64,000 bases of DNA from Halobacillus kuroshimensis DSM 18393 (GTDB taxonomy: Bacteria > Bacillota > Bacilli > Bacillales > Halobacillaceae), in NCBI RefSeq assembly GCF_000425705.1, contig NZ_AUDY01000016.1, forward strand, positions 62,001 through 126,000, given 5' to 3'. The notes under the pieces were generated by a model that saw only the letters and a program-made list of their open reading frames with translations, searched no databases and was not told where the DNA came from. Numbering within the stretch: the first letter of the stretch is position 1; the number at the start of each line of letters is the position of its first letter. Positions 7,924-45,502 of this stretch are shown piece after piece. Both the position numbers and the translations under genes were made by a program.

Positions 7924-9108
7924 TCATCCCCCTCGCTCTAATAGTTCATAAGCACTCCCTAAAAGGACTTGAACACCATGGGGCAGTGCTTGTTCGTCCA
8001 AATCAAAATCGGATTGATGCAGACTTTTCTCTTTGGTGAGGCCACAGCCTAAGAAAAACATCGCACCGGGAATGGTTTTCGTGTAAAAACTGAAATCCTC
8101 ACTCCCCATGCCAAAAGGTTCTTCGATAAGCTTCAAAGAACCTGCGGCTGTTTTGATGGCTGTGTTGATATCGCGGTCGTTCACAAGGGCTGGTTCTCCC
8201 CTTTGGACAGTAAGATCATAATTTCCGCCAAGGGCTGTCACGATGGTAAGGGTCTGCTTCAATTCTTCCAGCAGCTGTTCTCGGACGGATTCCTTATATG
8301 AACGGATGGTACCCTCAAGATAAAGCCGGTCCGGGATAATGTTTCCCGCTTCACCAGCCTGAACCCGGCCGATGCTGAGTGTCCCGACTTCCAATGGGTC
8401 CATCCGGCGCCCATTCAGGCTGTATAAAGCTCCCAGCAGCGACGAGGCCATCCAGATTGGATCTTTCACATGCTGGGGATAACCGGCATGGCCGCCGGAG
8501 CCATGAATGATAATGGAAAATTCATCGTTGTTTGCCATACTCGGCCCGTCATGCCACTGCACCTCCCCTGGTTTACGCCACGGACACATATGAAGCCCCA
8601 CCATTTTTTGAATATCATCCAATCTCCCTGTCTGCAGCATTTTCACAGCTCCGGTTTCTCCTTTAGAGTCACAGCATTCTTCGGCCGGTTGAAAGATCAA
8701 CTTTACTGTGCCATTGAAACGCCCCCGTTCAGCATCTTCATGCAGCAGCTGAGCGGTACCCAGCAGTACAGCCATATGGGCATCATGGCCACAGGCGTGC
8801 ATCACCCCTGGATTCCTGGATGAAAACGAATGGGTGGTCGTTTCTTGAATCGGGAGGGCATCCATATCCGCCCGCAGCCCGACCACCGGACCTTCTCCAT
8901 GACGGATGGAAGCAACCACGCCATGGCCGCCTACTTTTTCTTCCACCTTAAAGAGTGGAAGCTTCGTAAGTTCCGCAGCAATCGTTTCACTCGTCCGCTT
9001 TTCCTGAAAACTGAGTTCAGGGTGACGGTGGAAATCCCTTCTCCAGCTGACCAGCTGCTCAAACAACTGACGGGATCTCAAGGCCAAGTCCGGGTTTCTG
9101 GTTTCCAC
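7924..9108 (-). CDS. M20D amidohydrolase, candidate N-acetyl-diaminobutyrate deacetylase
   Basis: 394 residues with the M20 metal motifs ADMDALP, HACGHDAH and QPAEE, and a central dimerisation domain (GSGGHAGYP). M20D enzymes remove acyl groups from amino acids. The canonical DoeB deacetylase belongs to the AstE/aspartoacylase family, which is absent here, so this protein is the natural candidate to release acetate from N-acetyl-L-2,4-diaminobutyrate made by DoeA. That role is inferred from the operon. I recall an M20-type alternative deacetylase name, DoeB2, but cannot confirm the match. The start is GTG after GGGGGGAG; the stop overlaps the next gene. Confidence 0.75.
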   Translation of the reverse strand: METRNPDLALRSRQLFEQLVSWRRDFHRHPELSFQEKRTSETIAAELTKLPLFKVEEKVGGHGVVASIRHGEGPVVGLRADMDALPIQETTTHSFSSRNPGVMHACGHDAHMAVLLGTAQLLHEDAERGRFNGTVKLIFQPAEECCDSKGETGAVKMLQTGRLDDIQKMVGLHMCPWRKPGEVQWHDGPSMANNDEFSIIIHGSGGHAGYPQHVKDPIWMASSLLGALYSLNGRRMDPLEVGTLSIGRVQAGEAGNIIPDRLYLEGTIRSYKESVREQLLEELKQTLTIVTALGGNYDLTVQRGEPALVNDRDINTAIKTAAGSLKLIEEPFGMGSEDFSFYTKTIPGAMFFLGCGLTKEKSLHQSDFDLDEQALPHGVQVLLGSAYELLERGG

Positions 9109-43285: not shown

Positions 43286-43322
43286 AAAAAAATAAGCCCT
43301 CTCCTGTGTAAAGAGCGGGCTT
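43286..43322 (-). terminator. terminator of the par-like operon
   Basis: AAGCCC.CTC/GAG.GGGCTT stem with T-rich tail on minus, five bases after the stop. Confidence 0.75.
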
Positions 43323-43326
43323 ACGA

Positions 43327-43926
43327 TTATTGATTCATCCTAGAAAGAAAATCTCCGAGCAGGTCATCATCCTCTTCCTCGGTCTCCTCCGACGATTCCG
43401 CATCACGGAGGTCGTCCTGGAAATGGCCAAGGTCCAGTCCATCCAAATCATCGTCTCCGGTTGTATCCAACACCGGCTCCTGCACCTCTTCTCCTGCTTC
43501 CTCTCCGTCAGGAATAACGGGAACTTGAGGTTCATCAGATGCAGCGATTTCTTCCTGAAGATACAGGGCTTCATCTATATCATAAGCGCGGCTGTTCAGG
43601 GAAGCCAGTAGTGTTGTGGCACGAACCGGATCCATGATGAGTTGATGGAGGATACTGCCGATCAACGCTTCGGAATGTTCATGCTTCATCCAGTTTCTCT
43701 GCTCTTTCGACAAGGCTTTCGGAAGGGGAACTGTAATCGTTTCTTTATCCTTGGAAAGAGATTCATTCACTCCGTCCATAACGAACTGAGCAATACGGCT
43801 GGAAAAATTGCGCCGTTCCGTCTCTTTCAAATGCGACAATTGTTTCAATAAATGATCCGGAGTGTCCGAGGGGACACGAAATGTAATCGACTGCCCCCGT
43901 TCGACACTTTTTCTAGATGAACTCAT
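43327..43926 (-). CDS. ParR-like ribbon-helix-helix adaptor
   Basis: 199 residues. The N-terminal part (GQSITFRVPSDTPDHLLKQL, FSSRIAQFVMDGV) has the strand-helix-helix pattern of RHH DNA-binding proteins such as ParR. A middle helical part follows, and the C-terminal third is highly acidic (EEVQEPVLDTTGDDDLDGLD, EETEEEDDDLLGDFLSRMNQ), comparable to the ParM-binding tail of ParR. It starts 11 bases after the actin-like gene, the same order as parM-parR on plasmids. The call rests on fold pattern and context, not on a recognised family name. Confidence 0.72.
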   Translation of the reverse strand: MSSSRKSVERGQSITFRVPSDTPDHLLKQLSHLKETERRNFSSRIAQFVMDGVNESLSKDKETITVPLPKALSKEQRNWMKHEHSEALIGSILHQLIMDPVRATTLLASLNSRAYDIDEALYLQEEIAASDEPQVPVIPDGEEAGEEVQEPVLDTTGDDDLDGLDLGHFQDDLRDAESSEETEEEDDDLLGDFLSRMNQ

Positions 43927-43937
43927 GAATGATCACC

Positions 43938-45128
43938 TTACTTGGAAGATCCGGCCTGTTGTTCCACTTTTTTATTCGCCGGTTCGGCTGGTTTTTTGTT
44001 CGTCTTACGGATAAAGTCGGAAATCAGCTTGTAATAAGCGTTTGCCATCATCCAGATGCTCTCTTCCTCATCCTCGAAGAATTCAATATTAAATCCGTCC
44101 AGTTTATTGTTCAACATCTTGATATATTCCTTAAGAACGGCAGAACCTCCACCAACAAAATAGCAGATTTCTGTCTGGGAATTTTTCTGCCACACATTGC
44201 GCAGGTAGCGGTATTGTTTCTTAGCCAGTTCAAGGAGAATACGATCAGTTATGTCGTGAACACTTGTACGGCTACCGCGAACCATAATGTGATGACGGTC
44301 GTTCTTCCTCGTAATAATATCTACTACGTCCCGGCGGCTGTCGAGTTCCACTCCATGCTTCGTCAAAATTTCATCACGAATCATTTCCAGTGATTCAGAT
44401 ACACCGAGGTTGAAGCCCTGTGCTTTATCATCATCCACATTACGGTTGCGGATAACCGCGATATCTGTGGATAATCCACCAATATCCTGTATAAGAATCT
44501 GCTTGTCCACAAGCTCCTTGTTAATAATGTTCAAATCATTATCCATAACAAGATTGACATAGGCGGCGAACCCTTCCGGATAAACTTTCACTTCGTCAAA
44601 CTTAAGGTTGACTTTCATCCCTTGATATTTAGGGGTTACTAAAAACTCAACCTGGTGGACAGATCCGAGGAGCTGGGAACGGTATCCTACGTCCTTCCCT
44701 TCTTTGACTTCACGAAGGGGAAGACCAGTACCGAGAGTATAGTTGGCTTCTACTACATTATTTTTAGCTTGCTGAGATCCTTTGCCAGAAACCGCATCAA
44801 GGGCAAGGGATGCAAACAGCATAATCAAAGTCTGATCTTCTTCCGATTTATAGCTGCCTGGATCAAGCTCGGTGGAGTTTGTTGTTTTCGTCGCTAGATT
44901 CCCTACGCGGTAAATCGCATTATTTTCCCTAAGGGCAGGGGAATGCACCCGAATATGTAGATTATCGAGTGGATTTTTATCATCAAGATCCTCAATTCCG
45001 ATAACCGGACGGTCTTCCAAATCTCTCGCTACCACGTTAGGAATATAAAGGGAAGATTCCAGTTTCCCGAAATTTGCTTTCAAAGCATCATTACCGACAT
45101 CGATCGCTGCAATTCTTGAATGTGTCAT
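43938..45128 (-). CDS. ParM/StbA-like actin ATPase
   Basis: 396 residues with the actin-fold motifs: phosphate 1 AAIDVGNDALKANFG, phosphate 2 ILIQDIGGLSTDIAV, and adenosine motif YFVGGGSAVLKEY. It belongs to the plasmid-segregation ParM/Alp family rather than MreB or FtsA. It probably forms filaments that push or pull DNA bound through the ParR-like protein. A promoter lies 50-80 bases upstream and an octamer array beyond it. The Lys-rich C-terminal tail (KKPAEPANKKVEQQ) is unusual. The ATG follows AAAGGAG. Confidence 0.9.
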   Translation of the reverse strand: MTHSRIAAIDVGNDALKANFGKLESSLYIPNVVARDLEDRPVIGIEDLDDKNPLDNLHIRVHSPALRENNAIYRVGNLATKTTNSTELDPGSYKSEEDQTLIMLFASLALDAVSGKGSQQAKNNVVEANYTLGTGLPLREVKEGKDVGYRSQLLGSVHQVEFLVTPKYQGMKVNLKFDEVKVYPEGFAAYVNLVMDNDLNIINKELVDKQILIQDIGGLSTDIAVIRNRNVDDDKAQGFNLGVSESLEMIRDEILTKHGVELDSRRDVVDIITRKNDRHHIMVRGSRTSVHDITDRILLELAKKQYRYLRNVWQKNSQTEICYFVGGGSAVLKEYIKMLNNKLDGFNIEFFEDEEESIWMMANAYYKLISDFIRKTNKKPAEPANKKVEQQAGSSK

Positions 45129-45177
45129 AAACAGCTCTCCTTTTTATAAGTTATTAAAATGACCTCTCCTTAGTTAG

Positions 45178-45206
45178 AATCTATAAAACTATCAGAGAAT
45201 AGTCAA
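45178..45206 (-). promoter_or_regulatory. promoter of the par-like operon
   Basis: -35 TTGACT (45206-45201), 17-base spacer, -10 TAGATT (45183-45178) on the minus strand. It lies between the octamer array and the actin gene, so an array-bound ParR could repress it. Confidence 0.7.
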
Positions 45207-45229
45207 TCCTCCTTTTTTCGTGTTCATTT

Positions 45230-45375
45230 ATGCACACAAGTAATCAAAAACGTATACTTGTAAACAAAATTGCACACATGCCTATATGACAGCTTGTACA
45301 CGCTTTTGTGTACATGAAAACATAAACGCAAACACTTTGTATTCTTTTTGTATACTTGCAAACAAAATTGTATAC
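45230..45375 (+). repeat. parC-like array of TTGYRYAC octamers
   Basis: About ten octamers fitting TTGYRYAC or close variants lie here, for example 45250, 45258 (TTGTAAAC), 45270 (TTGCACAC), 45294 (TTGTACAC), 45306 (TTGTGTAC), 45337 (TTGTATTC), 45348 and 45368 (TTGTATAC), 45356 (TTGCAAAC). The trio 45250-45277 recurs at 45348-45375, 98 bases on. Successive spacings are mostly 8 or 11-12 bases, near the DNA helical repeat. This is the expected form of a ParR-binding centromere upstream of parM. Confidence 0.75.
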
Positions 45376-45465: not shown

Positions 45466-45502
45466 TAAAAAAAGACGATGCAGAAAGCATCGTCTTTTTT
45501 TA
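45466..45502 (-). terminator. terminator of the intracellular protease gene
   Basis: AAAGACGATGC/GCATCGTCTTT with a 5-base loop and T tract on minus. Confidence 0.92.

Follow-up and report, generated by a model that had tools for sequence, protein, structure and literature searches.

The chromosome of Halobacillus kuroshimensis DSM 18393 carries, within the window (the whole 64-kb stretch of DNA that was analysed), an actin-like gene of the ParM family, a small partner gene directly downstream and an array of octamers upstream, and we give somewhat better than even chances to the reading that this is a chromosome-resident type II (ParMRC) segregation module acting on the origin region. What was observed is (i) the three parts themselves and their conservation together, (ii) purifying selection, (iii) a non-random spacing of the octamers, with one strict array in this genome, and (iv) a constant, origin-proximal place in which the genes are co-directional with replication. 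ParMRC is mostly a plasmid system, and we know of no earlier actin-driven bacterial chromosome segregation system. If true, the broader form of this reading, given further below, would provide the first one known to us, and it bears on whether an actin-type machine moves any bacterial chromosome. New here is the origin-proximal, same-side and co-directional parM in 47 genomes of 25 genera. Since the module is complete, widespread, mostly single-copy and near the origin in cultivable spore-formers, with the B. subtilis control genome lacking a match to the Pfam family, this question is directly testable.

A three-part module and its setting

The features, in window coordinates, are the following.

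43296..43316, minus strand: hairpin resembling a terminator, downstream of the ParR candidate gene
43327..43926, minus strand: ParR candidate, 199 aa, an ORF 11 bases after parM
43938..45128, minus strand: ParM/Alp7A-type actin-like ATPase, 396 aa (Pfam, PHROG, Foldseek)
45178..45206, minus strand: sigma-A-like promoter TTGACT-17-TAGATT of the parMR operon (promoter scan)
45230..45237, minus strand: degenerate octamer, ATGCACAC on the plus strand, at the array's edge nearest the promoter
45258..45375, minus strand: octamer array, candidate centromere (parC), GTNYRCAA on the coding strand (pattern count); octamers (TTGYRNAC on the plus strand) start at 45258, 45270, 45294, 45306, 45348, 45356 and 45368
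45467..45501, no strand assigned: inverted repeat with flanking A/T runs, found by eye and outside the scan's list, in the spacer that separates the array from the S8 protease gene

The order originally predicted for this chromosomal locus, that is, a parC-like array followed by parM and a parR-like gene, holds. The ParR candidate adjoins parM in all 110 loci examined, and none of these loci lacks an octamer upstream of parM (three or more in 98/110, only one or two in 12/110). This set joins 30 loci, the window's own included, with the best 80 of the 445 given by a genome scan, so that counts on these 80 lean towards close relatives; some genomes are represented in both parts, and L031 and L032 were left out. 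Among the neighbours examined (an ABC transporter, an S8 protease, an M23 peptidase, FtsX and BioY, with ftsX 3.3 kb from parM), no replication or mobile gene was recognised, as had been predicted for replication and prophage genes. The accompanying list of core chromosomal neighbours stands in part: BioY and FtsX were confirmed and a GltD-like oxidoreductase is present, and the ORF named ltaS contains a sulfatase domain, like LtaS itself.

The actin-like protein

The 396-aa protein belongs to the ParM family, which upholds its prediction as a ParM-class actin-like ATPase. In Pfam, Alp7A_like_C (PF22128) reaches 125.4 bits against a cut-off of 22 and ALP_N (PF17989) 34.6 bits against 26.3, while MreB-like_C is also over its cut-off (42.6 bits versus 27.8) but less strong for its length; PHROG 691, a 'partition protein', matches at 3.6e-40. 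The AlphaFold model is poor (pLDDT 51.8), and the Foldseek matches, which rest on this poor model and have low TM values (0.30–0.42), are nevertheless uniform in kind, all six PDB matches at E <= 0.001 being ParM/Alp proteins: BtParM twice (4xe7, 3e-13), Alp7A (5ec0, 2e-10), Dh-cParM1 (8x1i, 1e-8), Alp12 and AlfA. PDB sequence searches returned marginal ParM matches only (E 0.034 and 0.03), and a phage search one weak, partial match. Among 40 aligned ParMs, in which mean column identity is 84% and the 39 relatives are 79–93% identical to the window's protein, D10, G12, D215, G217, G218, T221, D222 and G326–G328 are invariant; we take these residues to be the nucleotide-binding motifs. Nucleotide-dependent filaments are a predicted property of the protein. 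ParM is under strong purifying selection in the pairs tested, with dN/dS of 0.003–0.025 (about 0.01) in seven of the 11 pairs tried, the other four having either zero dN (one pair) or saturated dS (three pairs).

The ParR candidate

The 199-aa partner, likely a ParR, was predicted as an RHH protein 11 bases downstream of parM. The gene and its 11-base gap are as described, and the gap is 5–19 bases, with genes as mechanically called, in the best 80 of the 445 loci; the RHH assignment comes from the sequence pattern and from homology to the protein downstream of ParM on plasmids (26–31% identity to a small protein in that place on four plasmids), no RHH family having been matched in Pfam, a PDB profile search, PHROGs or Foldseek (with a weak model). 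Nor did the PDB yield a match by sequence profile or fold. The layout is that of an N-terminal beta-helix-helix (RHH-like) block, a helical middle, an acidic linker and a conserved C-terminal peptide with the consensus DDLLGDFLSxMNK, although the model, which is weak (63.3, pTM 0.26), shows two helices after the strand-like block and no strand. In the alignment of 40, the N-terminal block is rich in invariant positions, the middle varies and the last residues are kept, with L190, F193, M197 and N198 invariant; it is this tail that would contact ParM. Partner dN/dS is 0.03–0.11 in 8/11 pairs and saturated in three.

The octamer array and the promoter

The array is real but smaller than predicted. 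Between 45258 and 45375 there are seven TTGYRNAC octamers, five of them exact TTGYRYAC, which together with the one degenerate copy at 45230 makes the predicted 'about ten' exact octamers too many. Seven is nevertheless far from the shuffled expectation (mean 0.6, maximum 4 in 2000 shuffles), and the array is the densest 170-base octamer stretch of the 64-kb window. In the best 80 of the 445 loci, 448 octamers were counted versus 36.9 +/- 6.3 in dinucleotide shuffles, and three or more octamers are found in 70/80 loci versus 1.3% of shuffles. The mean is 5.6 octamers per locus, mostly upstream of the promoter-like site. Octamer positions and orientations vary among species while the array persists, and same-strand spacings in these 80 loci peak at 8, 12, 20–22, 42, 54–56 and 62 bases. 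Those at 20–22, 42 and 62 correspond to roughly two turns of the helix or a multiple of that, the others being 8- and 12-base offsets. The array is a candidate binding site for the ParR-like partner.

A strict triple pattern (TTGTRYACN{4,34}TTGYRYACN{4,34}TTGYRYAC), run on 49 genomes, matches in 22, and in 20 of these upstream of parM, whereas its reversed control gave one match over all 49; the remaining 27/49 have no match to the strict pattern. The genome of the window itself has two matches, both at the par locus, which by this pattern makes for one array there; looser arrays may lie elsewhere in it. The two exceptions among the 22 are G044, in which the match is just downstream of the partner gene, and G202, in which it is elsewhere only, and G136 and G213 each have one extra match elsewhere, that of G213 being on an 11-kb plasmid contig. 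The G044 match (L150:1202-1287) is a second octamer group, besides those upstream of parM. The G202 match (L148:1161-1210; contig C1, about 3.012 Mb) consists of three TTGTRYAC octamers 21 bases apart, two of them palindromic and TTGTRYACAA-like, far from parM and between ORFs that by eye are dehydrogenase-like and GntR-like, and may belong to a different regulator using a similar site.

The predicted sigma-A-like promoter (TTGACT-17-TAGATT) is there, but taken alone it is no better than chance, with five promoter-like sites at the own locus versus 4.7 +/- 2.0 in shuffles. It is the relatives that exceed shuffles: in the best 80 of 445 loci, a promoter-like site (median -83) is found in 70 versus 55.4 +/- 3.4 shuffled, which also means that some such sites arise by chance, and TTGAC is found in 49/80 versus 8.8. 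Of the 70 loci with a promoter-like site, only five have an octamer overlapping it, while the octamers of four plasmid cousins sit at or near the promoter (by eye), and the chromosomal array thus looks suited to cluster-building more than to repression, as if operator and centromere had been split. Terminator-like sites in the region number six versus 1.8 +/- 1.4 in shuffles, one being the hairpin after the ParR candidate gene, and since the inverted repeat at 45467..45501 looks terminator-like too, the module may be transcribed as a closed unit.

Distribution and descent

Element boundaries together with absence from sister strains had been named beforehand as evidence that would count against a chromosomal module; no boundary was seen, and parM is in 22/22 genomes of the genus examined, the own genome included. 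In a search of 61 genomes (own included) it was found in 45 at E <= 0.001 and in 41 at 77% identity or more, and across the order the ParM profile matches 204 of 397 genomes, in 56 of 135 sampled genera, mostly once per positive genome. Of these matches 201 are strong, which is the count used below, the weak ones in G158, G290 and G349 being left out. About half of the order's 397 genomes have no ParM match and the Alp7A Pfam family had none in 14 control genomes, B. subtilis among them, so the module is not a general need. Extra, distant ParM copies (E 3e-64 to 5e-97) lie beside the chromosomal copy in G378 (contig C2), G211 (C1) and G379 (C2).

Neighbouring genes differ between genera and are common within them, no neighbour family beyond the two par genes being found in more than 21/80 loci. 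The ParM tree, a quick one in which 27 of 80 inner branches are without support, clusters by genus (30 changes versus a shuffled mean of 57.9, with 0/200 shuffles as low). Pseudalkalibacillus, Metabacillus and Bacillus sensu lato are split in it, for which occasional transfer or taxonomy problems remain as explanations.

Position near the origin

In 47 nearly closed genomes from 25 genera, parM is 36–327 kb from dnaA (median 93 kb), which corresponds to a median of 3.9% of the replichore and at most 16.4%, and in every genome (47/47) it lies on the upstream side of dnaA, with transcription pointing away from the origin and thus co-directional with replication. These distances are those of relatives, the window's genome being split over 15 contigs and contributing no dnaA position. 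The genomes were hand-picked, in an incomplete pick of 48, from positives with six contigs or fewer; G332, in which dnaA and parM are on different contigs, was left out, as was a second, weaker FtsX match in G405. Contig sizes are exact for 23 genomes and rounded to 100 kb for the others, with parM distances across contig ends exact. The ftsX control is 176–1269 kb from dnaA (median 570 kb), on the same side as parM in 43/47, and in ratio its distance varies about as much as that of parM. A constant place is therefore no proof of selection, since genes often inherit their arm and approximate distance, as the ftsX control illustrates; that the position persists while the neighbours change is the stronger point.

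Sites resembling parS, with one mismatch allowed, were found in 49/49 genomes (reversed control 0 to 4 per genome), and they flank parM on both sides in G135 and G282, the two genomes compared. The most likely, putative, function of the module is to move or anchor the origin region. In this mechanism, array binding by ParR, contact between ParM and ParR, filament dynamics and the chromosome as cargo are all predicted steps: RHH-like ParR dimers would bind the spaced octamers to build one nucleoprotein cluster near oriC, the clustered C-terminal peptides would capture and promote ParM filaments, and these filaments would push or hold apart two newly copied origin regions or, alternatively, hold one origin near the pole during spore formation, with ParMRC working alongside the ordinary ParABS. 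Against a segrosome, RHH/actin pairs unrelated in sequence could have other tasks. The broader proposition, that in much of the Bacillaceae and related families an actin-based ParMRC with its own origin-proximal centromere acts on the chromosome in addition to ParABS, is one that we hold tentatively, at a little short of even chances; its task would perhaps be origin separation or origin capture in the spore.

Plasmid relatives

Only 71 of 72,556 plasmid records contain a ParM match, and none at 60% identity or more, which alongside the dnaA-relative position in 47 genomes speaks for a conserved chromosomal locus. Four of the 71, on B. methanolicus pBM69, Peribacillus pB, Cytobacillus kochii pBkBDGP4A and Pseudalkalibacillus unnamed1, are Bacillaceae cousins with a ParM 41–44% identical and the same two-gene order, an RHH-like partner being directly downstream. 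Each also has between one and three octamers of the same type, located by eye on the promoter or close to it. Unlike in these cousins, the chromosomal array is longer and lies about 100–300 bases upstream of parM, and the partner has a different C-terminal tail.

That such cousins exist, and that ParMRC systems are mostly plasmid-borne according to the available part of PMC12270681, would suit a leftover of an integrated plasmid, kept without a selected function. We regard this as very improbable indeed, because most positive genomes have one match, the pairs tested are under strong purifying selection, the oriC-relative place is the same across 25 genera and the examined neighbours include no recognisable replication or mobile gene. 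An integrated plasmid or mobile element as such was rejected on its presence in all 22 genomes of the genus and in 201/397 of the order, on proximity to dnaA and on dN/dS.

Plasmids could instead be what the chromosomal ParMR acts on, serving or excluding octamer-bearing ones (by hitch-hiking or centromere incompatibility), in which case the own array would be a decoy or operator. The cousins, with their same-type octamers and both genes, would fit, as would the absence of ParM matches at 60% identity or more from the 72,556 plasmid records, and one possible client was noticed: the 11-kb Rossellomorea marisflavi plasmid NZ_CP081871.1 has five TTGTAWAC octamers in about 70 bases (7948-8015; L147:3949-4016), its own ParA gene and no parM-profile match, while the module itself is on the chromosome of its host (G213). 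These octamers are possibly a centromere borrowing the chromosomal machinery or else a simple AT repeat. However, this is the one such plasmid noticed, its array is perhaps just an AT-rich tandem repeat, and a dN/dS near 0.01 and a constant origin-proximal place are not readily explained by occasional plasmids, which is why a plasmid-directed role seems quite unlikely to us.

Sporulation and other actin-like functions

SpoIVA is in 382/397 genomes, and ParM is in 201 of the 382 with it versus 0 of the 15 without it (Fisher p = 2e-5), which hints at a sporulation link, although the 15 are from six genera and four families and thus represent few independent events. That ParM replaces RacA was considered and rejected: RacA-like proteins (NF009646, which we take to be the RacA family; the tool's name is PRK13182.1-1) and ParM are independent in the 397 genomes (126 with both, 75 with ParM only, 116 with the RacA-like protein only, 80 with neither; Fisher p = 0.54), with loose presence calls since there was no match at the curated cut-off, even in the B. 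subtilis control.

The own genome contains a second actin-like pair (L151:3598-5160; G000, contig C4, about 186.6-188.2 kb) near CotZ and SipL-domain genes. It comprises an ALP_N/Alp7A-type protein of 390 aa, which shares 27% identity with the ParM of the window, and a partner of 123 aa whose C-terminus is acidic. A second match to the ParM query, possibly the same gene, is found in 18/22 genomes of the genus.

Actin-like proteins next to spore genes thus occur, and the window's pair might likewise have been repurposed, moving no DNA but making filaments for shape, division or sporulation, with the RHH-like protein as an autoregulator acting through the array. The 0/15 count in SpoIVA-less genomes would agree with this, and roles beyond plasmid segregation have been suggested for chromosomal ParMs, as the accessible portion of PMC12270681 has it. 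Simple autoregulation, however, should require no more than a few promoter operators, the arrangement of the four plasmid cousins, and not several octamers per locus mostly upstream of the promoter-like site, so that we consider repurposing unlikely.

Relationship to known systems

The features that define ParMRC, as used here for membership tests, are from the part of a review (PMC5016525) that was available. By that account, pSK41 and R1 ParMRC share with the Halobacillus module the order parC–parM–parR, and have an RHH ParR with a conserved C-terminal tail, their repeats being gathered at a single locus upstream of the operon. The module differs from them in being chromosomal, in its longer ParR candidate with an acidic linker and in its degenerate octamers in reshuffled order, and no sequence similarity to their ParR was detectable for the candidate in the PDB search.

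A literature search found no Bacillaceae-wide origin-proximal ParMRC; the chromosomal ParMs that it did find are those of PMC12270681, in whose main text the words Halobacillus and Bacillaceae are absent. As far as the portion of that source at hand goes, chromosomal ParMs with ParR partners were reported in 2025 from Desulfitobacterium, Clostridium and others, the cassettes being those of Desulfitobacterium Dh-cParM1, C. botulinum Cb-cParM and B. tropicus Bt-cParM1/2; two chromosome-encoded ParMs form filaments, Cb-cParR binds a repeat region beside its own operon, a highly conserved Dh-cParM1 is found across its genus, several Bacillus chromosomes are said to share a conserved Bt-cParM, and ParCMR is described as yet to be implicated in chromosome segregation. 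The Halobacillus module resembles these cassettes in pairing a ParM-family actin with a ParR-like partner on the chromosome, Bt-cParM1/2 being likened to it by description only. It differs from Dh-cParM1 in sequence, the Foldseek match being at 15% identity. Dh-cParM and Cb-cParM are, within the same portion of PMC12270681, described from a single genus or a restricted set of strains, whereas the Halobacillus-type ParM is in 56/135 genera; and unlike the Clostridium set, among whose strains a conserved cparC was, in that portion, not identified, it has an array of octamers upstream wherever its loci were examined, and in 25 genera it sits close to the origin.
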